64,000 nt of DNA from Luteolibacter rhizosphaerae (GTDB taxonomy: Bacteria > Verrucomicrobiota > Verrucomicrobiia > Verrucomicrobiales > Akkermansiaceae): contig NZ_JAPDDR010000001.1 of the NCBI RefSeq assembly GCF_025950095.1, positions 1-64,000 on the forward strand, read 5' to 3'. Below are positions 496 through 20,830 of this stretch, one piece after another. The notes below the pieces were generated by a model, which searched no databases, was not told the DNA's origin, and saw nothing but the letters and a program-made list of their open reading frames with translations. Positions within the stretch are counted from its first letter, which is position 1; each line of letters begins with the position of its first letter. The position numbers and the translations under genes are program-made.

Positions 496-1524
496 TTACT
501 TCGGGGCTGGTTCGTAGATGCGGTCGAAGATGCCGCCGTCGGCGAAGTGGGTGGCTTGGGCTTTTTCCCAACCGCCGAAGTGGTCGATGGTGACGAGTTC
601 GATCTTCGGGAAGGTGGAGGAATACTTTGCGAGCGCTTGGGGATCGCGGGGACGGTAGAAGTGTTTGCCAGCGAGGTCTTGGCCTTCAGGGGTGTAGAGG
701 AAGTCGAGGTAGGCCTTGGCGGCGGCGGTGGTGCCGCGTTTCTCCGCGGTCTTCTCGACGACGGCGACGGGAGGCTCGGCGAGGATGCTGATGGAGGGAT
801 AGACGATCTCCGTCTGGCCGGGGAATTCCTTGGCGATGAGATGGGCTTCATTCTCCCATGAGATCAGGACGTCGCCGATGTTCCGCTGGGCGAAGGTGGT
901 GGTGGAGCCGCGCGCGCCGGAGTCGAGGACGGGGACGTTCTTGTAGAGCTTGGCGATGAAGTCCTGGGCGGCGGCTTGGTCGTTGCCGTTGTTTTTCTCG
1001 GCCCATGCCCAGCCGGCGAGGTAGGCCCAGCGTGGTGCACCGCCGGTCTTGGGATTCGGCGTGATGACCTGGGTGCCTTCCTTCACGAGGTCGCCCCAGT
1101 CCTTGATGTCCTTCGGGTTCCCCTTGCGGACGACGAAGACGATGGTGGAGGTGTAGGGCGAGCTGTTGTTAGGGAACTTCGCCTGCCAGTCGGAAGAGAG
1201 CAGGCCCCTTTCCTTCGAGATCATGTCGATGTCCAAGGACAGGGCGAGGGTGACGACGTCGGCGGGTTGGCCATCGATGACGGCGCGGGCTTGCTTGCCG
1301 GAGCCGCCGTGCGATTGCGTGACGGTGATCTTGCCCTTGCCTTCGGCTTCCCACTTCTTGGCGAAGGCGGCGTTGAACTCCTCGTAGAACTCGCGGGTGG
1401 GATCGTAGGAGACGTTCTGGAGTTCGAGGGTGGTCCCGGTGTTGGCTTCCTTCGGCTTGCAAGCGGAGAGGGTCAGCGCAGCGATGAAGGCGGCCGGGAG
1501 GATAAGGTGTGTTTTCATTTTCAA
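496..1524 (-). CDS. sbp: Sulfate-binding lipoprotein of an ABC transporter (Sbp family)
   Basis: The 342-residue protein has the normal length for Sbp/CysP periplasmic binding proteins. A signal peptide ends in a lipobox, LSAC at about residues 19-22, so it is probably a lipoprotein. Family motifs visible are [37 protein letters not shown] and [20 protein letters not shown]. The family binds sulfate or thiosulfate and delivers it to CysTWA. No permease or ATPase gene is in the window, so it may serve a transporter encoded elsewhere. It is the last gene of the tightly packed minus-strand run, 27 nt after the giant exoprotein gene. That placement suggests co-transcription and a link to sulfur supply, which is an inference. 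Confidence 0.9.
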
Positions 1525-1551
1525 AGGTGATGGGTGGACCGGGATTGCGGC

Positions 1552-4500
1552 TTATTGGCTGATCTCTTCTTCTGCCTCCTCTTCGTCATCTTCTTCGTCT
1601 TCATCCTCACCACCGCCGTAGCCGATGAGTTCGACGGAGATCTCGGAGTCGGGCTGGATGAGCTCGGGCTCTGCTTCCTCTTCCTTGGTCGCTGCGGTGT
1701 TGCTGGCTGCGTCTTCCGCGGTGGAGGAGACGGTATTGGCAGTGGTCGTCACGGTGGTGACGCTCGGGGCGGATGGTGCGGCCGGGGTGCCGGCGCTGCT
1801 GCCGGTGACGGCGATGTTGCCGGCGTTCAGCACTTGGTTCGCAGCGATGTTGAGATTGCCGGAGACGCGGATGCCGGCGTCGCCCGCATCGACGGTGCCT
1901 TCGGGCGCGATGAGATCGACGTTGCCGGGCGGCACGCCCTTCACGGTGGCGAGCACACCGATGCCGCCGCCGGTGGCGAGGCCGGAGAGGTCGGTTTCCA
2001 CCGCGGCGCTCTGGGGATCGATGAGCACGCGGGTGGGCGGGGCGGCTTGGACGGTCTTCGAGGATGAGCCGGCGGCGATGTCGCCCTTGGTGGACCAGAT
2101 GATCTCGTTGCCGCCGCGGAGCGTGAAGATGCGGCCGATGCCGATGTTGATGTCGTTGTTGGCGAAGATCGAGATATTGCCGCCGCTCTCCGTGATGATG
2201 CCCGGAGGCGAGAGCGGATTGCCGAGGATGGTGCTGGCAAGTTGAAGCCCGCCGCCGGGGGCGAGGATGGCGATGTCACCGCCATTGGTGGTGCGGATGT
2301 CGCGGGCGCGGGTGAGGATGTCGCCATCCCAGACCGGCTCGGTGCCGAAGAGCACCTTGATGGCGTCGAGCGCGCTGTCGTAGTTGCCATTGATGGCGTA
2401 GTTCCGGCCCGCGTCGCGGAGCAGGCGGAAGAAGACTTCGAGGGCGAGGCGGGCTTGTTCTTCCTCGGGTTGATCGGCGAAGACGATGCCGGGCGCGATT
2501 TCCTTCAGGTATTTCTCACCCTCCGGCGTGAGCACGTAGGCGTCGATGAACTCCGGGATGTTCAGGTTGCTGGCCGAGAGTCCGGCAGAAGCGCCGATGC
2601 CAGCGCCGACCACGAGATCCGCGCCATCGAAGGGCAGGTAGGGGTTGCGGGTATTTCCGATGCTGTTGATGCCGGTGCCGGTGCCATCGGGATTGTTCGG
2701 GCCGGTGCCGAGGTCGAGGTCGCGACCGGCGAGGACCTGAAGCGAGCCGGGGCCGCTGATCTGGATGTCGCCCGCTTGCGGCGCGCTGTCATCGTTGATC
2801 GCATTCGCCCTTTGTTGCGAAGCGACACGGAGCAGGCTGGAGGAGTCGTAGGGCGAGAGATCGCGGCCGGAGGCGACGATGCTGGCATCCGAGGCACGGA
2901 GGTTTTGAATGTAGAGAGCGATGTCCGCGATATCGCGGCCGGCGATCACGCGGGTCTCCTTCGGGGAGAACAGGGTGAGGCCGGAGATGTCGCCGCTGCC
3001 CGCGTAGATGCGGGTGGGCTCCTCGTCATCGCGATGGAGCAGACCGGCGGCATGCAGCGCCTGCTTGGTCTGCAGCACGGTGTTCTGGCCGATGGTGCCG
3101 CCGGATTCCGCGAAGAGGCGGTTCACGAAATCGAGGAAAAGCAGACCACCGGTGGATGCTGCGCTATTCGAGGTCCCGGCGAGGACTTGGTAGGCGAAGG
3201 GCGTGGCGATGCCGGGGATGGCTGCGGGATCGGCATCGGAGAGGTTGATCAGGGAGCGGCCCCACATGGTGGTGGTTACGCCCTTGAGATTGACGACGCC
3301 GTTCGGCTGGAGGGCATTGATCGAACCCGAGGCGAGCAGTTCGAGCGAGCCCTTCGCGGCGGGCGACAGGTTGAAGCTGCCGACAAGCGCGATATCCCCG
3401 CTGAAGGAGGTGGCCTCCAGCGAGCCAGGCCGCAGCGTGAACATCGTTTCGAAGGGCGCGATCGCCGTCTCGTTCAAGCGCAGCCACGGCTTCGCATCCG
3501 AGGCGGAGAGCGTGGGAGCGTAGAGGAGTTTGTTAGAGTACCAGCTCTGGAGCAGAGGCACCGCTTCGGCCTCAGTTTGACCGGGCATGGTGGCGGCGTT
3601 GCGCAGGGTGACATCGCCCCCGAGCGAACTGACGTTCACGTAGGAGTCCTGCGCGTAAGTCGAGAAGTAGCTCTTGTGCCAGAAGCTGTTGAGCAGTCCC
3701 CCGGGAAGAAGGAACGGATTCGAGACCGGGCCCAAAAGCACGTCGCCCCGCGCGCTGATGTCGAAGCCGCCCTTGCCAAGGAAGAGCGTCGTCGGGAGCT
3801 GGGTATAGGTCGTGCCTTGACCCACATTGATGTTGCTCTGGGCGAGGACCGAACGGGTGGCATTGGTGTGGATGCTGCCGCCCGCATCGAGCGAGCCGTG
3901 GCCGCGCTCGACGTAGTAGACGCCGGCATCGATGTCGTTGCCTGCTTGGACGAGCAAGTCGCCGCCGCCGAGTTCAAGCAGCTTGGAAGAATCGGGTCGG
4001 ACGCGGGTCGTCTGGGTGGAGTCGGTGTAGCCGGGCATGCGGGCATTGGTCGGGACGACCGCGTCCACATTGCTGATGTTATTGCCGGCGGTCATCGTGA
4101 CATCCCCGCCACCGAGGGCTCCGACGCCTTGGAAGAAGTTGCTAAAGTCGATCCACCAGGTGGTGGATGCGGATTCGCCGTGGCGGTTGATGCCGAAGGT
4201 GCCGGTGGCCGGATCGACATAGCCGCGGCGGTAGAGCCAGTTCGACGGCATCTGGAACTGTGAATCGGCGACGAGGTTGCCGTTCGTGAGCGTGAGACGC
4301 TCGATGTTGTTGCCCGCATGGATGCGAACATCGCCCCCGGCCATGCTGTAAAGCGCGGCATAGGTCTGCTGTGCATTGCCCAAGGACGAGGGCAGACCGG
4401 TGAGGCTCAAGCTAGGAAGTCGGAAGGTGCCGCCCATGGTGGGGTCCGAGACGCGGGTGCCGGCGGTGTAGATGGTGGCGAATTGATTGAGGAACTGGAC

Positions 4501-7500
4501 GTTCGCCGCGGCATTGATCTCGATATCGCCACTGCCGGTGCGGATGGTCTGGAAGCGATTGGTGATCGCGGAGAGCGTGGTGGCGGTAATGCCGGTAGAG
4601 CTCGCGATGTTGGTTCCGGTTTTGCCGAGTTTCAGCGAGCCGGTGCTGGTCCTGATGGTGTCGGCGAAGTCGGCGCCGGAGAGATCGGCGCCGGCGGTGA
4701 GGCGATAGGACCAGGATTGGGCGTTCGCCGGCAGGGCGGCATTGTAGTTCGCGAGACGGGCGGTCCAGAGCCATGAAGGATCGGAGTTCGCGAGAGTGGG
4801 CGTGAAGCCGTCGCTGAGCGCGTTGAAGAGCACGAGGTCTCCCGCAGCGCGCATGGTAAGGACACCCGCGGCACCTTTGGCTCCGAAGCGGAAGCCGGAG
4901 AGATCCCAATCGGCGCTCTGGTTAGAGGTAGAGGAACCGAGCGTGAGGTTGCCGGTGCGGTTGATGATCTCCGCGCCGGGGGCGAGAACGAGGATCGACT
5001 CGAGGCCGGGATTGTTCGCGAGCAGTCGCTGGGTGATGGCTGCGGAATTCGCGCTCGCAGTGCCATTCACGCCGAAGAAGGCGGCGGCGTCGCTGCGGAT
5101 CTGATTCTGCACCGCGGTGGTGATGTTGCCTCCGCTGGAGGTGAGATCGTAGAGGCGGTAGCCTTCGACGATGACGCTGGAGGCATCGCGAATCGTGCCG
5201 TCGAGGGCGCTCACGCGGATGTCGTTTCCGAGCACGGAGGCACGGAGGTGGAGCTGGCCGCTGAACTGGCCCTGATAGGCGCTGCTGCCGGGGGTGAGGG
5301 CATCGCCCGCAACCTTCGAGGCGACCGAGAGATTGAGGATCGAGCCGGCCTGGATCGAGAGCGAGCCGTCGCCCACGACGCCATCGCGCTGGGCACCGGC
5401 TTCCAGGGTGATCTTGCCGCCCTTGCCTGAATTGCTGAAGACTTGGCCGGCGACGGTAAGCCGCGAGCCGGAAACCGTGGTAAGATCGCCATTCGCGGCG
5501 AGATGGATGGCGCCGCCGGTGCGGCCCGAGGCGTCGATGGTGCCGGTGACCGTGATGTCGCCGCGATCGGCGGAGAGGGTGAAGTCGTTGGCGCGGTGGA
5601 TGCCATCGATCACGACGTCGCCGTTCCGCACGCGGATGGATTGGCTTTCCGTGAGCGATGCGGAAGCGAGCGAGGCGCTGAGGGCGGCGGTGGAGCCAAG
5701 TTCGGAAGCTTCGAGCGAGAAGCTGCCGTTCTTGCCTCCTGTGCCCCCGGACGCGCGGATGCTGCCGTTCGACGCGTAGGAGCCCTCCGGCACCGAGACG
5801 CCAAGCTTGCCGGCATCGCCACCACCGGGACGGGCGGAAACGTCGACGAGCGATCCGTCATTCAGGATCACATCGCCATGGAGCGAGGAGAGCAGGATCT
5901 CGCCGCCGCTGGTGAACTTCGTGACGTCGTGGAAGCGTTGTGAAGTGCCGGAGGCATCGAGGCGACCGTCCACGGTGAGATTCCCACTGGTGGCGGTGAT
6001 GGAAAGAGAGCCGCTCGGAAGAACGATATCCGTGGCGACATTCACCGAGGAGCCGCTCAGGGAGAGCGTGGAGCCCAAACCACCGGAAAGGACTTGGCCC
6101 GAGCTGGCGGCGAGGAGATTGAGGGTGCCGCCTGCGGTGATGCTGCGCTTGGCTCCGGCTTCGCCGGTGATCACGGGTGCAATCGCGGTGAGCGAGCCTT
6201 GGGTGCTGAAGCCGCCGGTGCCCGAACCCGTGATGCCGCGGGAGGCATTGAGGACGGTGTTCGCATAGCCATTGATCGCGAGTTGGCCGGAGCCGAGGCG
6301 GATCGAGCCAGCCTGGAACTCGAGCGAGCCCGGAGCAAGAGTCCCGCTTGAGGCGGAAGCATTGGCGGTGTTCTGGAGGACCAGGTTGTTCGCGGTGATG
6401 CGTGCGGTGCCGCCGTTGGCATTGAAGCCACGAATCTCCCCGGCACTGAGGGCCAAGGTGCCGAGGTTGCTGTTTCCGAATCCGCCGGTGCCGTAGATGT
6501 CGATGGACGAGTAGCTGAGGAAGGAAAGCGAGGATGCCGCGGCGAAGTCATCCAGCGTGCTGCGGGTGAGCACGGTGCCGGCATTCGTAGGCAGGGCACC
6601 TGCATTGTCCAGGGCGATGCTGATACGACCGCTGCCAAAGGTGTAGGCATCCGCAAGCAGGTTCGCGGCGGGGTCCAGCGAGAGCGTGGAGGTTGAGTCG
6701 AGGATAAGCCCCTTGCCCGCGAGCGTGGCTCCCGCGCCGATGCTGAGCAGGGGCGAACCCGCGCCGCTGGCACCGGTGCGGATCGTGGTGGCGTTCACAT
6801 TTGCCGCGACGCGGAGGAGAGCCCCATTGCCGGAGAGACGCAGGGTGTCGGCGTTCGCAAGCGTGCCGGTGGCGCGGATCTCCGCACCTTCCGCGATGGT
6901 GAGGCCGTTTCGCGCAACCAGCACAAGATCGCTGGCGGTGAGCGGCGAGCCTTCGTTGTCCACCGTGATGTTACCGCTGCGGACATCGACGGTGATGCCG
7001 TCCGCAGTGCTGGTGCGGCGACCGCCGATGAGCAGGCTCTCCGCGCCGAAGGCATTGAGTGCGGCGGCATCCAGCGTGATGGCTCCGGCAGGAGCGGTGA
7101 CTCCGGCGGAAGCGATGAAGGTATCGAGCGGGGTGCTGATATCGATGGACGAACCGCGGCCGCCCGAGATCGAGTTCGATGCGACTTCGCCGAGTAGCTC
7201 CATGGCCTGCGTGGCTTGGAAGACCAGATGGCCGGAGTCCGTGGGCAGGCGGGGGACGGTGGTGTTCGCGGATTCGGCGGCCTTCTTGAGGAAGACGTTG
7301 GCGAGGAAATCCTGATACTCGGCGCGCTTGCGGACGACCGATGAGGAAGCCAACTCGAAACGGGTCGCGAGGGTGGGTAGCGTGCGCTCGCTGTTCAGGC
7401 CATTGAAGCGGAAGCCGGAGACCACGCTGGAGCGATCCGGCATCTCGACCGTGCCGAGACCGCTGTCGCCGCCGGCAGCGGAAACGAGCACCGCGCCCGG

Positions 7501-10500
7501 AAGCAGGGCATAACGCGCGGGAAGGAGGGTGTAGTAGCCCTCGGCCAGGGTCTTACTACCCGCGACGTAGATACGATCGCCGACTTGAAGCGAGCTGTTG
7601 GTATAACCATCGCCCGCGCCGCCAATCAGGTTGGAGGCCGAGTCGGAGGGATTGAATTGCGAGACCGGAGCGAAGTCCGCTTGGTAGCCGGGAATGATCG
7701 CGAAGCTAGTGGTGGAAGCGAGAATATCGCTCGGGCCGCCGAGAGCGGGGACCCAGCGGTAGGCGTAGAGATCCCCGCCGCCCCGGAGGTCCACGGTGGA
7801 GCCATCCTCCGTGGTCACACTCTGGCCTGCGATGACGATGCTCTTCTCCGGCACTCCACCGGTGGTGACGTCCACGCCGTGCGGGTCGATCCAGTTCTCG
7901 CCATCGGTGCTGATGCCGTAGGGGATCACGATGCCCTTGCCGGTGAGCGGATCGACCGCGGAGACGGAAGTGACGCTGCCGGCACCCAAGGTGACCTGCG
8001 AGGTTACCGGCATCGGTCGCGAATTCCCCGCGATGATGTCCACAGGAGCGGTGCCAGTGCCGTCCCAGCCGAGATTGATGGTGCCGAAGGGGGCTCGCAG
8101 GGTGCCGCGTTGCTCGATGTGGGAGGCATAGATGCCAAGCGTGCCGCCTGCGGAGAGCGGGAGCTGACGGCGACCGGATTGCTCGATGGTGATGCTACCT
8201 GCGGTTTGCCCGTGATCGTAAGCGATGAAGGAGAGGCTGGAAGCGGTGAGCGGATAGACCTGGCCCGCGCGCAAGGTGAGATCCCCTGCCATGTGGAAGG
8301 TGCCGCTGCCGCGGATGTCGCCATTGACGGCGGAGAGCGTGGCATTGCCGATATTCTGCAGCGAGAGGCTGCCGATATCGATGACCTTGGCGGTGACATT
8401 CAGGCTACCGCTGCCATAGGTGGGAGAGAAGCTGGCGTTCCCGAAGGGGCTCGTGACTTCCGAAGGCAGGGAGGGCGGCTGGAAGGCCTTGCCCAAGGCG
8501 ACATGCGAGGCGGTAAGATTCACCTGCGAGTTCGCATAAAGGAAACCATCGGTCGCGACGCGGAGGGAGCCGCGGGCATTCACATCGACCGCGCCGTCGA
8601 AGGACACGACACCGCCGAGGGTGAGATTGTCGAAGCCGCCTTGGTTAAAGGAATCGATCGAGAAGTGACCGGCATTGCCCAAGGCGGCACCGATGGCAGC
8701 ATTCCCGCCGATGACCGCTCCCGACTGCTGCACGGTCAGATTCACCGAAGAAGCCGGGGGAATGACACCAGGCGGATCGAAGCGGCCCGAGGAAACGGTG
8801 AGCGAGCCGCCGGTTGCGGTGGAGCCACCGGCATTCGCGAGGAGCGTGGCATCCGAGAACAGCATCTGGCCCCCGCGCAGGGTGATGCTGCCGCCATTGC
8901 TGTGGACCTCGACCGGCACGGTGGCGAGGCGATTGATGGGGCGATTGATGCCGCTACCCACCGGCACGTTGGCGCGGCGCGAAGGATTCGCGAGGGCGGG
9001 ATTCACATCGAGGATGCCGCTGGTCCCGGAGACATCGAGAACGGCACCGCCTGAGGCGGCGATATTGCCACCCAGCGTGATATTGCCGCCATTGAGCACT
9101 TGGCCGACCCGGCGGCCGTAAGCATCCGGTAGGAGCACCGTGGTACCTGCCGCGGAGAGCAGGGCATTCGAGCCGATGAAGGTGGTGGCGCGGGCCTGCG
9201 TGATATCGTTGAAGACGAGGGCGGTGGAGCTGCCCCCTGCGACATTGATGGAACCACCGGGCGTGATGATGGACCCGAGAACCGAAACGGTATTGCCGGT
9301 GACGGAAACGGAGCCGCCGGGATCGGTGCGGAGTATGGAACCTTCACCCACCACGACATCGCCACGGACGAAGAGGGAACTGGAGAAGTCGCGAACGCCG
9401 GGGGCGGAAAGATTCAGGCTGACCGGCTGACGCAGGCCGACAACATCCTCGATGATCTCCAAGGAGAGCGGTCCGCCGCCCCCCGGATTGACGCGATAGC
9501 TCTGGACGACCGGTGCGACCTCCGTGCCTTCCGTGACGAGTACGGCGGGCGCCGTACCTCCACCGAGACCGCTGATATTGAAAGTGCCGAAGCCGCCCTG
9601 ATTGAAGAACTCCGGGGATAGCAGGAGAGTCGAGGGATCGGTATTGATTCCGCCGATCTGGACGTGCTGTGCCTGAAGCGAAAGCGTGCCGCCGCGGGCT
9701 CCGGAGTAGCCGCGTAGGGTGGAGCCGAGATTGAGCGTGCCACCGAGGACCGGCGCGACGGCGGGATCCTGACCGGCCCTGATGCTGATGCTGCCGGCAT
9801 TGCCAAAGTGGCTGCTATTCCCGGCGGTCATGAGGTAGCCGCCCGAGACATCGATCACGCTGCCCGCTTGGAGATCGGCATTGTAGGCGGCCACGGAGAC
9901 GCTGCCGCCACGGAGCTGGAGCGGCGATGGATTGCCGGCTGCGAGGGACTGGCGGTCATCCGTCACGAGACCGGCGACATTCAACGTGGCATTTGCGCCC
10001 AGCGTGAAATTGCCTTGGCCCGGCACGGGATTCGGCACGGGAGAGTCCGAATTGAGGAACTGTGCGTCGTAAGGAGAGATGTTGTGAGCCGAGAAGGAAA
10101 GGGTGCCGCCGGGTGCAATGATGTCGCCCTGGATGTCGATGTTAGCAGCCTTCAGGGTGAGACTGCCGCCGACCTGACGCTGGAGCGTGATATCTTCCGG
10201 AAGCAGGATGTTGCCCTCGGCATTCTCGACCGTGAGATTGCCGAAACCATGGGTGGAGAAGAGATCCGGCGAGAGGTAGACGGTCTCGCGGCGGCTCTCG
10301 GCAAGGGCGAAGGGAGCACCGCTTGCATCGGTGGCGAAGTCGGCGACATCTTCCTGATCGGCGTTGCCGAAAATCACATCCGGCTGTTCGGGATGCCAAG
10401 TGAGGATCGAGCCGGCCGAGAGAAGCTGGGCTTGGAAGCGGAGCGCGAGCGATGCCGCGGCGGGCAAGTTGCTGCCGGTGCTGCCGGAGCGGACCTGATT

Positions 10501-12663: not shown

Positions 12664-12675
12664 GGCGGTAGGATG

Positions 12676-13557
12676 TTAGGGCTTGGTGCTGCCGATGATC
12701 TTCGCGAGCTCGATTTCGTTGATGGCGAGCGGATTGGTCTTCAGCAATCGGGCGAGGTATTCCTGGCGGTTGAGGCGGGCGCGTTCGGCGCGGAGCTGGA
12801 TCGCGAGCTGGTCCTTGACCTCATCAAGGGTGGGCGTGCGGGCTTCCTTCGCTTCGAGCACCTTGAGGATGTGCCAGCCATCATCGAGTTTCACGGGCTC
12901 GGTGATGGCACCGGCGGCGAGCTTGGGAAGGCGATCGCGGATCTCCGGTTGGATCTGGGCTTCGGCCAGCCAGCCGATCTCACCGCCGCGATCCTTGCTG
13001 GCGGCCTCCTCGCTCTCGGCCTTCGCGATGGCGGAGAAGTCGGAGCTCTTTTCCTTCAGCTTCTTGGCGACGGCGTCGATCTTGGCCTTGGCTTTGTCCG
13101 CGGTGGCCTTGTCGGCATCCTTCGGTGCGGCCACGAAGACCTGTGCGAGGTGGTAGGACTTTGGCACCAGAAGCGAAGCCTTCGCGGCTTGATAGGCTGC
13201 TTCGAGATCGGCTTGGGCGGGGAAGTCCGCAGGAACCTTCGAGACGGATTCAAGGTAGCTCTCGGTCAGGGCGGATTCGCGGGCGCGAACGAGCTTCGCG
13301 ACTACCTCGGGTTCCTGGTCCCACTTCTTGGCAAGAGCTTCCTGGAGAACGAGACGCTGGATAAGGAGGGCGCGGACGTATTGGCCGAGCGCGGCGGGAT
13401 CCTTGGCCAGCTCGGTATCCTGACCGGCTTCAAGTCCGGCGAGGGCCTCCCGGATCTCCTCGGTCTTGATCTCAAGATCGCCGATCTTCCCTAGGGTGGA
13501 GGAGTCGGCGTGGACCGCGGTGATCGCGGCGATGAAAGCGATGATGGTGGACTTCAT
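12676..13557 (-). CDS. Parvulin-type peptidyl-prolyl cis-trans isomerase (PpiC/SurA-like)
   Basis: The 293-residue protein would assist folding of exported proteins in the periplasm. Residues 1-17 are a signal peptide. An alpha-helical SurA/PrsA-like N-domain follows, then a parvulin domain at about 132-237 with the family's VPKSYHLAQVFV start, DRGGEIGWLAEAQIQPEI and TEPVKLDDGWHILKVLE. The C-terminal helix is charged. The frame is open further upstream to 13866, but that part overlaps the previous gene, so the ATG at 13557, 5 nt after the stop of the coiled-coil gene, was chosen. Its position just before the exoprotein gene suggests a dedicated chaperone for the exoprotein, the porin or TpsB (inference). 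Confidence 0.9.
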   Translation of the reverse strand: MKSTIIAFIAAITAVHADSSTLGKIGDLEIKTEEIREALAGLEAGQDTELAKDPAALGQYVRALLIQRLVLQEALAKKWDQEPEVVAKLVRARESALTESYLESVSKVPADFPAQADLEAAYQAAKASLLVPKSYHLAQVFVAAPKDADKATADKAKAKIDAVAKKLKEKSSDFSAIAKAESEEAASKDRGGEIGWLAEAQIQPEIRDRLPKLAAGAITEPVKLDDGWHILKVLEAKEARTPTLDEVKDQLAIQLRAERARLNRQEYLARLLKTNPLAINEIELAKIIGSTKP

Positions 13558-13562
13558 AAGGT

Positions 13563-14207
13563 TCAGGGTTTGGTGCTTGGGGCGCTGAGACGATGGTCGA
13601 TGATCTTGTCGCGATAGCCGTCGACGAGGTTCTCGACCTTGACGCGGGCGTTGCCGATGAAGGGCTCCTTGGCGGCAAGCGACTTGCCGAGGGCATAGTC
13701 CCGGTAGCGGTCGAGGATCTCGTTCGAGAGGGAGAAAAGGGCGAGGTTCTTGCGCTCGCGATCGGAGACGGTGCGCTTGAGGGCGGCCACCTCGCTGCCG
13801 AGCTTCGCGCTCTCGGCATCCTTGGTCCGGGCGATCCCGGCGACGCTTTCGTAGCCGACCTTCCATTTGTCGATGGCGGCGATGTACTCGGCGAGTCGCT
13901 TGTCGCGATCAGCGAGCTTGTTGCTCAAGGTCGCGATGGTCTTCTCGCTGTCGGTCTTGTCCGCGTTGGCTTGCTTCGCGAGGGAGTCGTTCCGCTTCTC
14001 GAGATCGGTGACCTTGGTTTCGAGAGCACTGGCCTTCTGCTCGGCGGCGATGGCGGCGGCTTGGGCCGTGGCGGTTTCGCCTTGGGCGGTGCGGAGCTGG
14101 AGCGTCAGGTTCTTGAGCGCTTCGCGGAGACGGGCGCTGTCATCCTCCTGGGCCTGCGTCGAGGCGGGCAGAAGCAGGAGCAAGACTGCGGGAATGATGC
14201 GGTTCAT
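13563..14207 (-). CDS. Periplasmic coiled-coil protein of unknown function
   Basis: The protein has 214 residues with a signal peptide at 1-19 (hydrophobic, ending STQAQ). Residues about 20-110 are almost pure coiled coil, rich in Ala, Lys, Glu and Gln (LREALKNLTLQLRTAQGE, EQKASALETKVTDLEKRND). The C-terminal half is charged and helical. It has no recognised catalytic motif. The pattern resembles YbgF/CpoB-like or tail-fibre-like trimerising helices, but I cannot assign it. It sits 5 nt from both the porin and PPIase genes, so it is almost certainly co-translated with them and could act as a periplasmic spacer or scaffold for the secretion and porin components. Confidence 0.8.
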   Translation of the reverse strand: MNRIIPAVLLLLLPASTQAQEDDSARLREALKNLTLQLRTAQGETATAQAAAIAAEQKASALETKVTDLEKRNDSLAKQANADKTDSEKTIATLSNKLADRDKRLAEYIAAIDKWKVGYESVAGIARTKDAESAKLGSEVAALKRTVSDRERKNLALFSLSNEILDRYRDYALGKSLAAKEPFIGNARVKVENLVDGYRDKIIDHRLSAPSTKP

Positions 14208-14212
14208 GGCCT

Positions 14213-16018
14213 TTAGAATTTCGCGTTGATGTCGAACTGCAGGGTGTCCGTGCTGAGCGGCGGGCCGGTGACTTCATCGGAGGTCATCCACTTGAGTCCC
14301 ACGCGGACGCTGGGGGAGACGGCGAGCGCGCCGCCGAGGGTGAAGCCCTGCAGGTTGGTGCCGCCGCCGCCGAAGTCGGAATCGGTGAAGCCATCCACCA
14401 CCGCATCGGACTCGACGTAGCGGTAGCCGATGCCCGCGATCCAATCGCCCTTCTTGTCCATGGCGGTGCGGCCGAAGAGGAAGTTCATGTTCCAGGCAGT
14501 GTCACCGCCGTCGAAGGTGCCGGTCCCGGCGCCCACGCGGTTGTTCACCGCCTTCGCGCCGATCTCGCCGGCATCGAAGGCGAGGTTCTTCATGTATTCG
14601 CCCGCAAGGGTGAAGTTGACCGGATCGTAGGCGGCGTAATCGAGGCGGCCGGTGGCGGCGAGCACTTGGAAGGGGGTCGCGAGGCCGTAGTATTGGTACT
14701 GGTACTTCGTGCCGAAGTCGTTCGCCGCGGTCGGGATGATGTTGCGCAGCGCCATGTAAGTATTGCCGCGCTGGGCGAAGGAGGGGCGGGTCGCGTCCGT
14801 GCTGCCGGCATCGTTCGGATTCAGCGGGACGAAGGGGGTGGAGAGTTCGCCCTCGATGTTACTGAAGTCGTAGTAGGCGGTGGCAAACTTGGCGGTCAGG
14901 TCCTTGTTGATCTTCCACTCGATGCCTGCCTGAGCGCCGTAGAGCCACTTATCTTGGCTCTCGAACTTCGAGGGCTGGTTCGTGGCGAAGTTGAAGTCGG
15001 TGTTGTAGACCGGGAAGAGGCCGCCTGCCCCGAAGAGGGTGACCTTCTCATTCACCTTGAAGCGACCGCGGGCAGCGATGCCGTCGAAGCCGAGGTCGTC
15101 GTCCCACATCACCTCGCTGGAGAAGAAGGGATTGTCGAAGCGGCCCACGACGACGGAGAGCTCGTTGTCCTCGCCCTCGATCATGTCGTAGGCGAGGAAG
15201 GCGCGGTCGAGCCAGAGCGAGTACTTCGAGAAGTTGCCGCCGGAGCCGCCGAGCGACTGGTTCGGGGAGACGGGAGAGTTGCTATCGCCGGTGGCGATGC
15301 GCAGGCCGCCGGTGAAGCCTTCGCCGAGCATGATGTCCGCACCGAAGCGGGCGCGCAGGCGGGCGCGGTTGCGGTCTTGGTCGACGTTGTATTGCGGCGA
15401 GAAGAGTGTGCCCGCGGTGTCGAAGGGAGCGCCGGTGTTAATCGCGTTGAAGTTCGGGAATGAGCCGGTGTTGTCGTTGCCGTCGCCAAAGAAGATGCCT
15501 TCGTAGCGTCCGCGGAAATCGCCGAAGAAGCGAAAGTTCTCGCCCTCATGGGTGATGGTGTAGTCGCCGGACTTGCCGTCGTTGCTGCGGGATTCCGCGA
15601 GAAGCTCCTGTTTGATTTCGTCGCGGATGCTGTTCCGCACGGTTTGCGGCACGTAGTTCACGCTGACTTCATCCTCCGTGCGCGGCGGAGCTGGTGTCGC
15701 TGCTTGGGCGCGGGCTGTCTGCGCCTCGGCCTCGGCTTGTTCGATCAGAGCGAGTCCTTCCTCCTGGGTGAGCTGGCCTTTCTTCACCAGCAGAGCCACG
15801 AGATTCACCGCCATGTTCTGCGATGGAGTTGCGGCCTGTTGCGGTTGGGGCGGAGGCTCGGGCTGGGGCACGCCCAGCGCGGGATCGAGCATTTCCTCGA
15901 GAGTGGGCGGCTGGTCAGGGGCGGCCAGCGGGGCGAGATCGGGAGATTCCTGCGCGGCCGCCAGCGCGGTGCCGGCGAGGAGCAAGGTAAGGGAGCGATG
16001 GGCGTGCATGGTGTGCAT
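14213..16018 (-). CDS. Putative outer-membrane porin with N-terminal coiled/linker region
   Basis: The 601-residue protein has a signal peptide (about 1-22, ending ALAAAQ), then a Pro/Gln-rich linker and a short helical segment (DEVSVNYVPQTVRNSIRDEIKQELL). A beta-barrel follows that begins FRFFGDFRGRYEGIFFGDGN. The barrel has alternating aromatic/polar strands (FTGGLRIATGDSN, LWLDRAFLAYD, ELSVVVGRFDNPFF, LTAKFATAYYDF, WIAGIGYRYVESDAV) and ends in an outer-membrane terminal strand, LQFDINAKF, with C-terminal Phe. This matches the 'putative porin' family common in the PVC group and Bacteroidota. A passive channel for a substrate, perhaps an anion such as sulfate given the co-transcribed sbp, is possible but not shown. 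A second ATG lies three codons in, at 16009. Confidence 0.88.
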   Translation of the reverse strand: MHTMHAHRSLTLLLAGTALAAAQESPDLAPLAAPDQPPTLEEMLDPALGVPQPEPPPQPQQAATPSQNMAVNLVALLVKKGQLTQEEGLALIEQAEAEAQTARAQAATPAPPRTEDEVSVNYVPQTVRNSIRDEIKQELLAESRSNDGKSGDYTITHEGENFRFFGDFRGRYEGIFFGDGNDNTGSFPNFNAINTGAPFDTAGTLFSPQYNVDQDRNRARLRARFGADIMLGEGFTGGLRIATGDSNSPVSPNQSLGGSGGNFSKYSLWLDRAFLAYDMIEGEDNELSVVVGRFDNPFFSSEVMWDDDLGFDGIAARGRFKVNEKVTLFGAGGLFPVYNTDFNFATNQPSKFESQDKWLYGAQAGIEWKINKDLTAKFATAYYDFSNIEGELSTPFVPLNPNDAGSTDATRPSFAQRGNTYMALRNIIPTAANDFGTKYQYQYYGLATPFQVLAATGRLDYAAYDPVNFTLAGEYMKNLAFDAGEIGAKAVNNRVGAGTGTFDGGDTAWNMNFLFGRTAMDKKGDWIAGIGYRYVESDAVVDGFTDSDFGGGGTNLQGFTLGGALAVSPSVRVGLKWMTSDEVTGPPLSTDTLQFDINAKF

Positions 16019-16036
16019 GGCTTCTTCAGGAGAGGT

Positions 16037-16726
16037 TTAGCGGGGGGAGCGGATGTTGATCTGGAGGCGCACCGGGAGGGGCATGTCGGCGGGAGCACTG
16101 CCGGGGATCTGGAGGTCCATCGCGGCGCGGCGGGCTTCCTCGATCAGCTCGGAGCTGGCGTTGCTGTTGATCAGTTTGGCGCGCACGGTGCGGCCGGTGC
16201 TGCGGTCCACCCAGACGAGCAGGGTGCCGCGGAGGCTGGCTTTGCGGAGCTTGGCGTTGGAGCGGAAGGCGGCGAGGACGGTGCCTTCGATGGACTTGCC
16301 ATAGCTACGGAAGCGGGTGCCGGCAGGACCGCCACCACCGGGGCCACCCTTGCCGCCGCCATCGCCGGCGGTACCGAGTCCGAAAGAATTCGGCCCATCT
16401 CCGGTAAGTCCCGTACCAAGCGCGGGCGGCTCGGCGGGAGAGGGTGGCTCGGGCGACTCATCGACCACGGCTTCTTCCTCCACCATCTCCTCCTGCTGCT
16501 CCGGCTCCTGAGGTGGTTCGGGAGGCGGTGGCGGTGCCGGGGGGGGAGGAGGCGGAGGTGGTGGGATCGAGACCACGACCATCTCCTTCGCCTTTGGCTT
16601 CACCGGACCCGGCTTGTGATCGATCGTGAAGAAGGCGACCAGTCCGCCGATGAGAAGCGCCGCTACCGCGGCACCGATCACGCGGCGCTTGGTGCGACCT
16701 TCCGATTCGAAATCTTCCGCCTTCAT
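16037..16726 (-). CDS. TonB-family energy transducer
   Basis: The 229-residue protein has a short cytoplasmic N-terminus, one membrane anchor at about 15-34 and a Pro-rich stretch (about 50-72). An acidic Glu/Pro region and a Gly-rich linker come next. The last 90 residues resemble a TonB/TolA C-terminal domain (GKSIEGTVLAAFRSNAKLR, GTLLVWVDRSTGRTVRAKL, LPVRLQINIRS). The architecture is that of TonB, which passes proton-motive force from ExbB-ExbD to outer-membrane receptors. It follows exbD by 7 nt. No TonB-dependent receptor is encoded in this run, so its outer-membrane partner is unclear. The nearest receptor in the window is the BtuB-like protein at 29283. Confidence 0.88.
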   Translation of the reverse strand: MKAEDFESEGRTKRRVIGAAVAALLIGGLVAFFTIDHKPGPVKPKAKEMVVVSIPPPPPPPPPAPPPPPEPPQEPEQQEEMVEEEAVVDESPEPPSPAEPPALGTGLTGDGPNSFGLGTAGDGGGKGGPGGGGPAGTRFRSYGKSIEGTVLAAFRSNAKLRKASLRGTLLVWVDRSTGRTVRAKLINSNASSELIEEARRAAMDLQIPGSAPADMPLPVRLQINIRSPR

Positions 16727-16733
16727 GCTCGTC

Positions 16734-17138
16734 TTATTTCGCGGGGTGGGTGGCCAGGCCGATCTTGTCGATCTGCAGGCGGCCGAGGATGTCGAGCACG
16801 TTCATGATACCCTCGTATTGGGTCTGGCGGTCGCCGCGCACGACGACCGGCACGTCCGGGGTGGCGGCCTTGATCGCGCCCAGTTTGTTTTCGAGTTCGG
16901 CCAGCGTGACCGGGATGGTATTGAGCGCGATCTTGCCCTCGTTGTTGATGGTGATCGCCTGCATCTTGGGCGCGCCCAGATCCGCGGCGGCGCTTTTGCT
17001 GGCGCGCGGTAGATCCACCTTCATTCCCTGCACGCCGGCGGTGGTCATGATGATGAAGATCAGCAGCAGCACGAGGTAGAGGTCCACCATCGGCGTGACG
17101 TTGATATCGTCGTAGCTCTTGTCGTCGGCAGAGGCCAT
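16734..17138 (-). CDS. exbD: ExbD biopolymer transport protein
   Basis: The 134-residue length is normal for ExbD/TolR. The N-terminus carries the family signature INVTPMVDLYLVLLLIFIIMTT, where the Asp of MVD is the proton-pathway residue in the single membrane helix (about 14-36). The periplasmic domain follows (MKVDLPRASKSAAADLG, VPVVVRGDRQTQYEGIMNVLDILGRLQIDKIGL). It works with the ExbB fusion encoded 5 nt upstream and the TonB protein encoded 7 nt downstream. Confidence 0.95.
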   Translation of the reverse strand: MASADDKSYDDINVTPMVDLYLVLLLIFIIMTTAGVQGMKVDLPRASKSAAADLGAPKMQAITINNEGKIALNTIPVTLAELENKLGAIKAATPDVPVVVRGDRQTQYEGIMNVLDILGRLQIDKIGLATHPAK

Positions 17139-17143
17139 GGCGC

Positions 17144-18979
17144 TTACTCCTTCGGGGTGGTGTTGGCGGCGTAGGGCGATGCCTCACCGGCGGGTGGATA
17201 GAACTCGGCCATCTTGGCGACGAACTCATCGATGAAGACCTGCATGCCGCTGGTGGTCTCTTTGATCCGGCTATTCAGGTAGCTGTAGATGAAGAGTGCA
17301 GGGATCGCGACGATCAGGCCGGCGACCGTGGCGAGCAGCGCGCTGGCGATGCCGGGGGCGATCGAGTTCACATCCACCTCCCCGCTCTTCGCGATGATCG
17401 CGAAGGTGATCATCACGCCGACCACGGTGCCAAGCAGGCCGACGTAGGGGCCTCCTGCGATGCTGATGGTGAGGAAGACGAGGCCTTTGGTCAGACGGTG
17501 GGTCTCCTGCACGAGTCCGCCATCGAGCGCGGCGCGGATCGCTTGGATCGAACGACCGGACAAGCCCTTGGTCCGGTCCTTGTCGCGGGCGAGACGATGC
17601 CGGATCTCATCCGAGCCGATGTGGTAGATCTGATAGAGCGGCGACTTCTTGATCAGACTCTGAGCCCGCGCATCCGCAAGGCCGCCGAAGCTGCCGATGC
17701 TCGATTCATCCGAGTGGTCGATCGCGGTAAGGTCGGAGGACAGTTCTTTCCAGCGGCGCAGGAACTCGCGCGAAGCCTTCTGGATCGAGTTCAGGTAGTT
17801 GAACTTCTGGATCGCGACGGTCCAGCCGACCACGATCATGATGATGCAGACCCCGATGGCGATCCAACCGTCGAACATCATGTTCTTGGCGATATCACCG
17901 AAGAGCATCACGTGCTCCAAGGCTTGGCTGTGGCCGCCGCCGCCTTCGCCTCCTTCCACTTCACCGAGAGCGATGGTGCGCTGGGCGGCATCGGTGCTGC
18001 CTTGGCTCAGTGCGGCGAACTTCACCCAGGCGGCACTGCGCGGAGCCTTCGAGAGGTTGAGCTCGTCAATCTCGCCGACAAAGCGCGAGGCGCTGGCGAA
18101 GCCGCCGAGAACGATCGGTCCCGGCAGGGCGGGAAGTGTGGCGGAGAGCTGTGCGTAAGGCTCGCCATTCACGAAGAGTGAGAGCTTGTCCGCCTCGGCG
18201 CTCACCGCGAGGTGGGTCCATGTCGCGGCGGTCACCGGTTGCCCCGGGGAGCTCCGCAAGGCCCCGACTTCGATCAGCGGGATTCCCTGGTCGAGCACCA
18301 GCTTGAACGACTGCGCTCCTTCGCCACGGCTCAGGACGACCGCTCCCGATTGCAAGGCTGAGGGGCGGATCCATGCGGAGAGGGTGAAGCCGTTGTTCCA
18401 CTCCAAGGATGAGGAGGCGGCGATGGTCACGGGATCTGCTCCGAGCAAACGTGCGCCGCTGCCGATGATGGCTCCCTCCGAGGCGGTGAGCGGTCCTGAA
18501 GCATTGTTGCCATTGGTCGTGGCATCAGCAGGGGCGCCGCCCTTGTCGGCAAAGTGATAGACCAGGGCCGAGTCATAGACATCGGCAGGCTTCAAAGCCG
18601 GAGCGGCAGCGGGATTCGCGGACCCGTAGTAGAGATGAAGCGAGGTCTTGGCATTTGCCGCGATGGTTGGCACCTCCACCCACACAAAGGCCTCGTTCAC
18701 GATGCTGTCGTACTTCTCGATGTGATGGGGAAGCAGGGTGCCGTCCGAGCCGATGAAGCGCAGATCGCTGCCATCCGCGGCGGCCGAGCTGAATTGGAAA
18801 TTGCCATCGTGCAAGCGGACCAGCACCGCGCTACCTTGGAGCGCGTCGCCGATGTTGGCCGCGTCCGAGCCGGTGTTGACAGTGAGTTCCTGACGCTGGG
18901 TCCAGTCCTTGTTCCACCAATCGGCGGCATGCAGCTGGGCGGCGAGAAGCAGTGTGAAGGCGAGTTGTCTCGTGATCAT
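17144..18979 (-). CDS. DUF2341-LamG-ExbB fusion: proton channel with periplasmic lectin-like domain
   Basis: The 611-residue protein has a signal peptide (1-18), then a DUF2341 segment (WWNKDWTQRQELTVN, DLRFIGSDGTLLPHHIEKYD, VWVEVPTIAANAKTSLHLYYG). A LamG/concanavalin-like domain lies at about 150-310 (GFTLSAWIRPS, WTHLAVSAEADKLSLFVNG, GEIDELNLSKAPRS). From about 350 to 600 it is a complete MotA/TolQ/ExbB channel: one helix near 365-390 and the conserved pair of helices with GLLGTVVGVMITF and GIASALLATVAGLIVAIPALFIY. It should form the inner-membrane motor with ExbD. The large sensor-like periplasmic module is not part of ordinary ExbB. It lies 12 nt after tpsB. I recall similar fusions in other genomes but cannot verify how widespread they are. 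Confidence 0.9.
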   Translation of the reverse strand: MITRQLAFTLLLAAQLHAADWWNKDWTQRQELTVNTGSDAANIGDALQGSAVLVRLHDGNFQFSSAAADGSDLRFIGSDGTLLPHHIEKYDSIVNEAFVWVEVPTIAANAKTSLHLYYGSANPAAAPALKPADVYDSALVYHFADKGGAPADATTNGNNASGPLTASEGAIIGSGARLLGADPVTIAASSSLEWNNGFTLSAWIRPSALQSGAVVLSRGEGAQSFKLVLDQGIPLIEVGALRSSPGQPVTAATWTHLAVSAEADKLSLFVNGEPYAQLSATLPALPGPIVLGGFASASRFVGEIDELNLSKAPRSAAWVKFAALSQGSTDAAQRTIALGEVEGGEGGGGHSQALEHVMLFGDIAKNMMFDGWIAIGVCIIMIVVGWTVAIQKFNYLNSIQKASREFLRRWKELSSDLTAIDHSDESSIGSFGGLADARAQSLIKKSPLYQIYHIGSDEIRHRLARDKDRTKGLSGRSIQAIRAALDGGLVQETHRLTKGLVFLTISIAGGPYVGLLGTVVGVMITFAIIAKSGEVDVNSIAPGIASALLATVAGLIVAIPALFIYSYLNSRIKETTSGMQVFIDEFVAKMAEFYPPAGEASPYAANTTPKE

Positions 18980-18991
18980 ACGGGAGAGGTG

Positions 18992-20569
18992 TTAGAATTC
19001 CGCCCAGCCGCGGAAGGTGATGCGGATATCGCCGGACTCGGCTTCCGCTTGCGTGGTGAAGGGCATCGCCACGTCCAGCGAGCCATTGTAGTGTTGCCGG
19101 TAGCGGAAGCGGGTGCCTGCTCCGGCGCTCAAGAAGTTGTAGAAGGACTTCTGCGAGGGCAGGGCATCCAGCACCGTGACCGTGCCGCCGTCGATGAAGG
19201 CATGCACGCGCCACTCATCGGCTCGCTTGGCGGTGCTGCTTTTCTCCCCGGTGAAGGAAGGGCTGCGGTATTCGGCGGTGGCGAAGAGCCCGTTGTCACC
19301 GAGCGCGGTCGCCTCGAGGTAGCCGCGGGCATTGCCCAAGCCGCCGCCGGCAATCTGTTCGCTGTTTATCAGCGGCTGGCTGGAGACCTGGCCTTGGATC
19401 TTGCCGAAGAGTTGCGAGCCGTCGGTCAGATCGCGGGTGTGCGAGACATCCCCGCGCAGGAAAATGAAGCTACCATCCGCCTGGTAGCGCTTGGCATCGA
19501 ATTCCGCCTGATCGCTGCCCATGCCGCGGAGGTGGAAGTTCAGCGAGAGATTCGCTTCGGTGAAGGAGTTCGGCTTGGTCCAGGAAGCACCGTAGTTGGC
19601 GCTGATCGGGTAGTAGGTGATCGGCGTCTTGCCGACCGTGTTGCCGATGCGCAGGTCCTGATCGAAGGACTTGTAGTCGATGCCGAGGCTGAGGGTCTGG
19701 TAGAATCCCTCCTTCGAGGGAAGATCGTAGAGGGCGCGCAGACCGATGGTCTCGCCGGGAGCCACCACGGCCGCGCCGCCGAGGGTGGAGATATCGCTAT
19801 GCTGCTTGGTTCCCTGCAGCATGAGTGTCACGCTGTCCGAGACCCGGGCCATGTAGTAGCCGGAGTAGACCAGCGCATCGTCCGGGCGTTCGGGAGCGAT
19901 CTGGAGGTTCCCCCCGATGGTATGCCCGAGTTGAAAGAGGTTCGAGTAGCTCAGCGCCGCATTCACACGCAGCGGCGTGGTATTCGCGTTGTAGCGGTTG
20001 TTCAGCTCCAGCGAGCCGTGGAGCGGCAGTTCATCTTCCACCTTCAGGTCGATATCGACCGTGCCCGGCAAGGCGCCGGGTGAGAGCGAAGGCGTCACTC
20101 GGCGATCAGCCTGGCGGTTCAGCGCCATGATCTCCTTCTTCACGGCATTGAAGTTCGGGACCTCGCCTTCGGCCAGGGACGGCACCTCGGACTTGATGCG
20201 GCTCGGCAGGAAGTAGCGGGAACCATTCACCCGGAGACGGGCCACCTTGCCTTCCGTGACCTCAAGACGGATCACTCCGCTCTTGGGATCCTGCACGGGA
20301 ATGGACACGGAGACGGTCGCATAGCCTTTGTCACGGAAGGCCTTCTCGAGCGCGGCGCGCGCTTGATCGACATCGCCGGTCGTGCGGCCCGGACCGAGGA
20401 AGGGATAGACCGCCTCTTCAATTTCCAGCGGGGTGAGCTTGGTCGAGCCCTGCACGCGATACTCGCGGATGAAGTATAGGGGCGCTTCTTCAGCGGCGCC
20501 CACGGAGCCCGCCGCTAGTACGAACCAAAGCGCGGCCCTGCCCGCAACGGCGGTCAGGGTTTCGCGCAT
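18992..20569 (-). CDS. TpsB/FhaC/ShlB-type two-partner secretion transporter
   Basis: This outer-membrane protein exports the TpsA partner. After a signal peptide (ending GSVGAAEE) there are two POTRA domains, the first with IREYRVQGSTKLTPLEIEEAVYPFLGPGR and DKGYATVSVSIPVQ, the second with RRVTPSLSPGALPGTVDIDLKVED. A 16-strand barrel follows, with the family motifs GQVSSQPLINSEQIAGGGLGNARGY (the RGY motif region) and a C-terminal strand ending WAEF with terminal Phe. The length, about 525 residues, fits FhaC. The ATG at 20569 gives a compact signal peptide; an in-frame GTG at 20596 would add nine residues. It is the first gene of the nine-gene run that ends with sbp. Confidence 0.93.
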   Translation of the reverse strand: MRETLTAVAGRAALWFVLAAGSVGAAEEAPLYFIREYRVQGSTKLTPLEIEEAVYPFLGPGRTTGDVDQARAALEKAFRDKGYATVSVSIPVQDPKSGVIRLEVTEGKVARLRVNGSRYFLPSRIKSEVPSLAEGEVPNFNAVKKEIMALNRQADRRVTPSLSPGALPGTVDIDLKVEDELPLHGSLELNNRYNANTTPLRVNAALSYSNLFQLGHTIGGNLQIAPERPDDALVYSGYYMARVSDSVTLMLQGTKQHSDISTLGGAAVVAPGETIGLRALYDLPSKEGFYQTLSLGIDYKSFDQDLRIGNTVGKTPITYYPISANYGASWTKPNSFTEANLSLNFHLRGMGSDQAEFDAKRYQADGSFIFLRGDVSHTRDLTDGSQLFGKIQGQVSSQPLINSEQIAGGGLGNARGYLEATALGDNGLFATAEYRSPSFTGEKSSTAKRADEWRVHAFIDGGTVTVLDALPSQKSFYNFLSAGAGTRFRYRQHYNGSLDVAMPFTTQAEAESGDIRITFRGWAEF

Positions 20570-20596
20570 GTTCTTACGATGAATCTGGTATTTCAC

Positions 20597-20777: not shown

Positions 20778-20803
20778 CCGCCCGGCACTCACGTGCCGGG
20801 CGG
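20778..20803. terminator. Perfect hairpin after the PstS-like gene (possible terminator)
   Basis: Arms ccgcccggcac (20778-20788) and gtgccgggcgg (20793-20803) pair perfectly over 11 bp around a 4-nt loop. It lies 28 nt past the stop codon of the minus-strand gene ending at 20831, where a terminator is expected. There is no T-run on either side, so a Rho-independent role is uncertain. It could also be a processing or mRNA-stabilising element between two parts of one transcript. Confidence 0.5.
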
Positions 20804-20830
20804 GTCACAAGCGATATTCAAGGAAGAATC

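Follow-up and report, generated by a model that had tools for sequence, protein, structure and literature searches.

A two-partner secretion operon of Luteolibacter rhizosphaerae with its own TonB-ExbB-ExbD genes and a conserved exoprotein tail motif

The operon and its component proteins

We analysed a two-partner secretion (TPS) operon of Luteolibacter rhizosphaerae, which lies near the start of contig 1 of the 6.2-Mb genome; the window covers its first 64 kb. An earlier reading of the DNA, here called the original prediction, had described nine same-strand genes spaced by 5-27 nucleotides (nt) and had joined the TPS pair, a private TonB-ExbB-ExbD energy module, a porin, a chaperone and a sulfate-binding protein (Sbp) into one transcribed machine. 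Coordinates and domain searches confirmed the layout: from tpsB to sbp, all nine genes are on the minus strand, with successive gaps of 12, 5, 7, 18, 5, 5, 12 and 27 nt, and from this spacing we infer a single transcript across all of them. The gene list held for the eight genes from tpsB to tpsA, with one corrected start, whereas Sbp proved to be only a neighbour. The start of the PpiC frame at 13866 was rejected as an over-call in favour of a start before a signal-peptide-like sequence at about 13557.

18992..20596, minus strand: tpsB, 534 residues; outer-membrane TPS transporter with POTRA_2 (PF08479, ShlB-type) and a ShlB barrel (PF03865)
17144..18979, minus strand: exbB fusion, 611 residues; signal peptide, DUF2341, Laminin_G_3 (laminin-G/ConA-like) and MotA_ExbB proton channel (PF01618)
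16734..17138, minus strand: exbD, 134 residues; TolR/ExbD NCBIfam models at E 3e-26 to 1e-10, under the curated cut-offs
16037..16726, minus strand: tonB, 229 residues; transmembrane helix, proline-rich spacer and divergent TonB-type C-terminal domain
14213..16018, minus strand: porin, 601 residues; Porin_5 outer-membrane porin (Pfam E 7e-187)
13563..14207, minus strand: coiled coil, 214 residues; periplasmic coiled-coil protein
12676..13557, minus strand: PpiC, 293 residues; parvulin-type peptidyl-prolyl isomerase (Rotamase Pfam)
1552..12663, minus strand: tpsA, exoprotein of 3,703 residues; TPS domain near 11536-12228, DUF3739 at 1783-2115
496..1524, minus strand: sbp, sulfate-binding protein; a neighbour outside the conserved module

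TpsA begins with a TPS domain (PF05860, E 1.6e-19) and matches by sequence EtpA, an adhesin (2odl) and a heme/hemopexin-binding protein; for TpsB, CdiB (6wim, E 1e-15) is the sole solved sequence matching at E <= 0.01. The TPS domain, the POTRA-barrel TpsB and the giant exoprotein are shared with the type Vb systems FhaB/FhaC, CdiA/CdiB and HMW, to which the window module adds a dedicated TonB-ExbB-ExbD, a porin, a coiled coil, a tail motif and a short TpsB linker. In 54 module TpsBs the stretch between signal core and POTRA domain has a median of 17.5 residues (range 5-93; at most 25 in 33 proteins, at least 40 in 11), as measured by a hydropathy heuristic and with some gene starts over-called. 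The linkers sampled are short and often rich in proline and alanine, compared with 51 and 49 residues and a longer charged stretch in two control TpsBs. This is only suggestive of a TpsB without a pore-plugging helix.

The occurrence of ExbB, ExbD and TonB-like proteins together recalls the TonB-ExbB-ExbD and TolQR motors, from which the module differs by the N-terminal DUF2341 and laminin-G-like domains of its ExbB and by a C-terminal domain of TonB so divergent that Pfam does not recognise it. The window TonB alone had no Pfam match, and comparison with HasB/TonB structures gave weak matches only (E 0.5-1.1). Its family profile (A4), however, aligned with a TonB_C-positive protein of the same genome at 99% hhalign probability, partly over the proline-rich region.

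Conservation in Verrucomicrobiota and Proteobacteria

Relatives were sought in genome contigs with an alignment of 15 TpsA N-terminal parts; the best 80 of 341 confirmed relatives were kept, all of them Verrucomicrobiota, and by this part of the protein the closest named locus is that of a Luteolibacter metagenome-assembled genome (82%). Profile matches give the complete order tpsB-exbB-exbD-tonB-porin-coiled coil-tpsA in 50/80 loci, one of which lists the porin before tonB owing to an over-long frame, and PpiC was recognised in 25 of the 50. Another 18/80 loci hold a partial cluster that is consistent with this order and is ended by the end of the locus or contig, and 12/80 hold tpsA alone. 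Of these solitary genes, six (L081, L089, L098, L101, L109 and L129) are free of the module over more than 7 kb of upstream sequence, and for the remaining six the upstream sequence is shorter than 3.1 kb. Where the genomes of detached tpsA genes were checked (G043, locus L163; G036, L164; G371, L168), the module lay elsewhere in 3/3.

Exoprotein and energy module also occur in the same genomes, as assessed by Fisher tests that ignore relatedness. Among 57 relatives, DUF3739 was found in 12 and the full-length fusion ExbB in 12, with an overlap of 11. One exception, G029, has as its ExbB match a frame of 254 residues starting at a contig edge; the other, G050, has the module and the start of tpsA while DUF3739 was not found. 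G050 had at first been taken for a module without TpsA, a reading dropped when the tpsA start was found. Across a sample of 387 genomes of the phylum, the DUF3739 TpsA occurs in 12 and the full-length fusion ExbB in 10, all of them within the 12; DUF3739 without full-length ExbB is confined to G029 and a weak match in G336. These ExbB counts exclude the shorter matches, present in further genomes, that cover nothing but the channel part.

Two assembly observations concern tpsA itself. In G029, two tpsA contigs (L027 and L056) begin mid-gene in an identical TPS-domain stretch, suggesting either that one paralogue was recently copied into the other or that a repeat collapsed during assembly. In L139 (G465) the reading frame of tpsA ends ahead of DUF3739, and a separate open frame of 394 residues encodes that domain, so that the gene is broken or misassembled.

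The module extends to proteobacterial plasmids. Among 72,556 plasmid records searched with tblastn, the fusion ExbB was at least 80% covered in 11 and the TpsA C-terminus present in 16, with all 11 within the 16; the five records with only the TpsA C-terminus may have their module on another replicon. Methylosinus sp. C49 has the gene order of the window plus YbjN, with STN, sigma-factor and FecR genes upstream. TpsA is encoded twice in Klebsiella quasipneumoniae, which also has the module, and each of its tpsA genes adjoins one for a sigma factor and one for FecR or DUF4880. In Cupriavidus, a type II secretion cluster separates the module from tpsA, and in Aquabacterium tpsA precedes exbB and no PpiC is annotated. 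The gene set is common to these plasmids, and the position of tpsA and PpiC varies. When the proteins of these four plasmids were supplied, without PpiC for Aquabacterium and ExbD for Cupriavidus, the verrucomicrobial profiles matched the proteobacterial TpsB, ExbB, ExbD, TonB, porin, coiled coil, PpiC and TpsA, the weakest match being the Aquabacterium coiled coil (E 5e-14); coiled-coil homologues were present in 4/4 modules. In Methylomagnum (L263), a gene annotated as the peptide CefA, a ribosomally synthesized and post-translationally modified peptide of the Cys-every-fifth type, comes after the DUF3739 exoprotein.

Eight genes, namely tpsB, the ExbB fusion, exbD, tonB, the porin, the coiled coil, PpiC and tpsA, make up the conserved module, and the verrucomicrobial and proteobacterial sets are one homologous module. 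The expectation that gene order would be kept in relatives was borne out, with 50/80 complete loci in one phylum and an order largely retained on the proteobacterial plasmids. Order and co-occurrence likewise make the energy module, the porin and the coiled coil part of the TPS system, and PpiC in half of the complete clusters. That a TPS pair and a Ton operon merely adjoin by chance is refuted by the same conserved order, the co-occurrence and the cross-phylum homology, and its probability is negligible.

The original prediction had allowed that such clusters might already be described, and they are. What we draw from the papers cited here (PMC7035377, PMC2729926, PMC5422565 and PMC4104836) holds for the portions of each that were available. 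In a Pseudomonas aeruginosa vreR mutant, expression is raised for PA0690 pdtA, PA0692 pdtB, PA0693 exbB2, PA0694 exbD2 and PA0695 tonB4, as well as for PA0696, a putative outer-membrane porin, PA0697, PA0698 YbjN and PA0699 PpiC (PMC7035377). The same work of 2020 called exbB2-exbD2-tonB4 a putative TonB system, still uncharacterised, and gave the function of PA0696-PA0700 as unknown (PMC7035377). A study of 2009 had already linked the cluster to homologues of TPS, ExbBD and PA0696 in Pseudomonas, Burkholderia, Rhodopseudomonas and Janthinobacterium, two of these genera holding several detached tpsA per genome (PMC2729926), and PdtAB is controlled by PhoBR and PUMA3 (PMC5422565). The PUMA3/VreI locus resembles the window in placing TpsA, TpsB, ExbB, ExbD, TonB, a putative porin, PA0697 and PpiC together (PMC7035377, PMC2729926), and the window module is very probably of this PdtA/PdtB-ExbB2-ExbD2-TonB4 type. 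It differs in being one operon with tpsA last and two further genes upstream, and in lacking VreAIR, the Hxc type II system, LapA and YbjN within its nine genes. The kind of system is therefore known already and is met here as a single operon in another phylum, with the tail motif described below as a new element. The FhaC-type group of TpsB proteins was described as almost exclusively proteobacterial (PMC4104836), and the available part of that paper makes no mention of TonB. In the literature searched we met neither verrucomicrobial copies nor the TpsA tail motif, and DUF3739 is not mentioned there; PMC4104836 names Verrucomicrobi once, in text that was not shown. Our comparison shows the module to be common to two phyla.

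Sbp, in contrast, had been counted as a working part. The corresponding reading, a nine-gene unit whose fibre captures an anion that would reach Sbp by way of the porin, takes its appeal from the 27 nt between tpsA and sbp in the window and from the closest relative, in which two sbp genes lie 5-7 kb from tpsA on the opposite strand and a sulfate-uptake-like run, so labelled by size and order, lies about 2-8 kb downstream in convergent orientation. Synteny largely refutes it: 47 distinct tpsA 3' ends are followed by 300 nt or more of sequence, and sbp lies within 1 kb of only one of them, that of the window. In addition, a second Sbp of the same genome (72% identical) adjoins a run resembling cysTWA by size and order, several relatives have paired sbp genes elsewhere (44 of the 80 loci, in 42 genomes, were examined), and sbp adjoins a DDE transposase C-terminal remnant at the contig edge (3-422, plus strand; E 1e-4, just under the Pfam cut-off). 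We consequently rejected Sbp as a part of the module, and regard the nine-gene reading as very improbable.

Two other genes lie farther upstream on the same strand, separated from tpsB by 234 nt:

20831..22171, minus strand: up1, 446 residues; predicted secreted protein without a Pfam family
22214..23257, minus strand: up2, 347 residues; predicted to be secreted, with a single TSP3_bac repeat; frequently adjoins up1

Apart from that repeat, neither protein has a Pfam family. Up1 was found in 13/57 relatives, namely 11 of the 12 DUF3739 genomes, G050, where the module is present, and G008, with some matches at only 28-37% identity. The up2-up1 pair precedes tpsB or, in G043b, a detached tpsA, and elsewhere it follows tpsA. 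By this distribution up1 and up2, two unclassified and presumably secreted proteins, are companions of the module, an association that appears to be new.

Phosphate-type promoters and neighbouring genes

The sequence TGTCAC-N5-TGTCAC, at 10/12 or better, was present in 30/60 tpsB upstream regions, with about one expected from shuffles. The same repeat stands before 18/30 PstS-type genes, two of them in the window's own genome, compared with 21/181 other unit-starting genes and 4/142 non-starting genes. A first PstS search with a protein of G466 reached only 4/38 genomes (repeat at 2/4), and the Pfam family was adopted for this reason. A matrix built from the pstS sites, which is not independent because these sites were picked using the repeat first seen at tpsB, found 33/60 tpsB regions against 0.6 expected; it marked 15/21 unit-starting and 0/6 non-starting tpsB genes, against 23/181 other unit-starting and 2/142 internal genes. 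These promoter counts are uncorrected for relatedness. Some sites may alternatively be inverted repeats, TGTGAC-N6-GTCACA. A strict E. coli-type Pho box (CTGTCAT repeats) was set aside, its 16/60 at 10/14 or better against about nine expected being little above shuffles, whereas the form TGTNAC-N5-TGTNAC gave a strong signal.

Counting one entry per genome locus, with loci of less than 700 nt upstream dropped and same-genome loci under two names counted once, the site is at 27/51 tpsB promoters. It occurs in 26/34 loci without up1/up2 directly upstream and in 1/17 with them, the one being the window, whose score is marginal. By this split there seem to be two promoter types, that of the window being without a clear site:

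20791..20811, minus strand: Pho-box-like site upstream of tpsB; score 10.6 against a 1%-shuffle threshold of 10.2; marginal and probably not functional

In many relatives, then, phosphate starvation probably switches the system on, as judged from these sites, and the repeat shared by pstS and tpsB, which appears to be new, is a candidate Pho box for Verrucomicrobiota. At the P. aeruginosa locus phosphate starvation is in control, whereas the Pho-type site at the tpsB promoter of the window is marginal only.

Neighbouring genes were scanned on both sides of the module: 55 downstream (50 of the 57 listed, as set A2, with four more scanned separately and three left out, and five extra genes of L183 and L196 picked by eye) and 45 upstream (43 in set A3 and two from L211 added by eye). 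Among the matches listed, Sel1 (4), metallophosphoesterase (3) and response regulators with Trans_reg_C (3) recur, and PHO4, PPK2, PBP_like_2, PhoU, DUF3419 and CHAD appear once each. In L187 (G466, contig C11), tpsA is followed on one strand by Porin_O_P, a PstS-type protein, pstCAB-like genes (labelled by size and order) and PhoU. The phosphate families among the neighbours are only a hint, as many neighbours are unrelated and the scan, having no background set, is not an enrichment test. The anion of the original prediction is kept only in altered form, with phosphate marking the promoters and some neighbourhoods of relatives and sulfate falling away, while the window's own site stays marginal. 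Sel1-type proteins were also seen near the module in L198, L193, L173, L194, G029b, G011b, G056a, G047, L183 and L103 (the last on the same contig as G047), several of them directly after tpsA.

The exoprotein tail and its possible coupling to TonB

In 25 aligned TpsA C-termini, a nearly invariant S-x-x-x-V-E-V-x-G-Y-G stands behind a variable low-complexity linker. In the window this corresponds to:

1615..1641, minus strand: TpsA C-terminal linear motif; window form ISVELIGYG, family consensus PSIITVEVLGYGG; in a tail predicted to be disordered

An AlphaFold2 model of the last 330 residues (mean predicted local distance difference test, pLDDT, 72.3) shows helices and then a strand-rich domain to about residue 246, which we read as a beta helix. 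Residues 255-317, which hold the motif at about 302-310, have pLDDT below 50, and the motif-bearing tail is presumably disordered. A Foldseek search with this C-terminus returned nothing at E <= 0.001.

Tails entered the count if at least 100 residues followed the last TGGG[IV]G and [RK]IFTLRGG lay upstream; of the 64 distinct DUF3739-signature tails so obtained, 57 match the motif pattern, six end with the fetched stretch and one is a variant (PSIITVTVEGYG). An earlier, narrower pattern had matched 38/64, its 26 misses comprising nine that were not true 3' ends (including L139) and 17 with forms that it disallowed. Proteobacterial forms are PSIITVEVLGYGG in Methylosinus C49, PSTISVEILGYG in Klebsiella, PSIVSVQVLGFGG in Cupriavidus, PSIVTVEVIGYGG in OB3b and PSVFTVRVLGFG in V. 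boronicumulans, with the variant GILTVELLSLG in Aquabacterium. Ten further plasmid pieces gave six matches to a pattern that tolerates R/K at the acidic position and three near variants (two Burkholderia and C. campinensis). This R/K pattern occurs once in the window TpsA and in the last 130 residues of 0/437 non-TpsA proteins, and exoproteins of other type from Pannonibacter and Salmonella have no such tail. Detached TpsAs whose tails were read retain the motif, and an acidic end is common in verrucomicrobial tails. Conserved in Verrucomicrobiota and Proteobacteria, the motif appears to be a new element of these proteins. At the very end of several proteobacterial TpsAs (L145, L254, L255, L259, L261 and L264) a second, similar piece was seen, like VQVLGAG...LT..ER.

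To our mind the module is best explained, with slightly better than even confidence, as a TonB-coupled two-partner secretion system whose TonB takes hold of the TpsA tail in the periplasm. By analogy with known TPS systems, TpsA would enter the periplasm via Sec, be kept unfolded by the parvulin where one is present, and dock with its TPS domain on TpsB. Export would proceed N-terminus first, the protein folding outside as a very long beta helix, as its TPS and DUF3739 domains lead us to expect. Behind the last folded domain, the disordered linker with the strand-like PSIITVEVLGYGG would stay periplasmic and be gripped by the dedicated TonB in the manner of TonB boxes. ExbB and ExbD, with the fused periplasmic lectin-like domain, would couple the proton gradient to this grip, so that the fibre is held, pulled or released, and the porin and coiled coil would complete the envelope assembly. 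Under phosphate scarcity, the fibre would serve attachment or scavenging.

For the idea that TonB gates or energises the exoprotein, the motif now supplies a candidate contact; the action of TonB on the TpsA tail is itself conjectural, and we hold it tentatively, at somewhat less than even confidence. The wider notion of a proton-motive-force-coupled TPS present in at least two phyla, in which the Ton motor grips a TonB-box-like tail and powers or controls export, retention or retraction, is more doubtful, though a real possibility. It would matter since type V secretion has been described as free of an energy source (PMC5422565), and the nine-residue core near the TpsA end offers a single small target for testing whether TonB acts on the exoprotein.

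Several observations weigh against this coupling. Half of the complete clusters are without a recognised PpiC, and one fetched TpsA end (L258) has no motif in the frames read. The likeness of the motif to TonB boxes was judged by eye. For the window's tpsB the site is marginal, and about 9.4 kb of sequence on the 5' side of the gene contain none that scores 12 or more. Identity with the P. aeruginosa locus is no more than probable, being read from gene order, annotation and proteobacterial relatives. Insertions in PA0690, PA0692, PA0695 (tonB4) and PA0696 left zebrafish virulence unchanged (PMC2729926), type V translocation is held to need no energy source, and that of TPS systems reportedly works in vitro without external energy (PMC5422565).

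TonB might, moreover, act on the porin instead. The Ton module would then energise the Porin_5 barrel or an unlinked receptor, TpsA being an ordinary TPS adhesin that draws the cell or a substrate near, in a scavenging machine whose secretion step is energy-free. The porin follows tonB in the clusters, phosphate genes are found among the neighbours, and Haemophilus influenzae HxuA/HxuB with the TonB-dependent transporter HxuC offers a precedent for a TPS pair encoded with Ton-driven uptake, although the Ton-dependent part there is a heme transporter and the portion of the paper available mentions no TonB/ExbBD of its own (PMC5422565). The predicted porin, however, is an ordinary one: the AlphaFold2 model (mean pLDDT 77.7) has 16 long barrel strands and N-terminal helices, Foldseek places it among general porins with OmpM1 best, and we found neither the plug domain nor the 22-strand barrel of a TonB-dependent receptor, only Porin_5. 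OprP is among the Foldseek matches and not at the top, and phosphate selectivity is therefore not claimed; sequence searches of the PDB found no significant match (best E 0.15 and 0.2). As this alternative also leaves the tail motif unexplained, we consider it rather unlikely.

A further alternative makes the motif an outer-membrane anchor or export stop, read by TpsB, the coiled coil or a sensor (a VreA-like STN protein in Proteobacteria), with TonB-ExbBD only reporting the state of the envelope. Sigma-factor, FecR or DUF4880 and STN genes at proteobacterial tpsA loci speak for it, as does VreA, modelled with a TonB/TolA-like C-terminal domain (PMC2729926), and because the TpsB linkers are short, another component may plug or hold the pore. 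Yet the motif is present in Verrucomicrobiota, where STN, FecI and FecR are absent among the first 25 of 64 and the first 25 of 43 neighbour families, and we think this alternative improbable.

Apart from the coupling of TonB to TpsA that we favour, two other Ton-related observations were made in this genome. A second Ton cluster (L161, contig C1:335000-353000) consists of an open reading frame of 1151 residues without a Pfam match, DUF3450, ExbB, ExbD, TonB, a TPR protein and a weak Porin_O_P; the channel part of its ExbB is 74% identical to that of the module, and a pstS-type repeat (11/12) lies 115 nt before the 1151-residue frame. Within the window, a TonB-dependent receptor and a BNR-repeat neuraminidase-type protein are encoded on the plus strand at 29283-31265 and 33337-34842.

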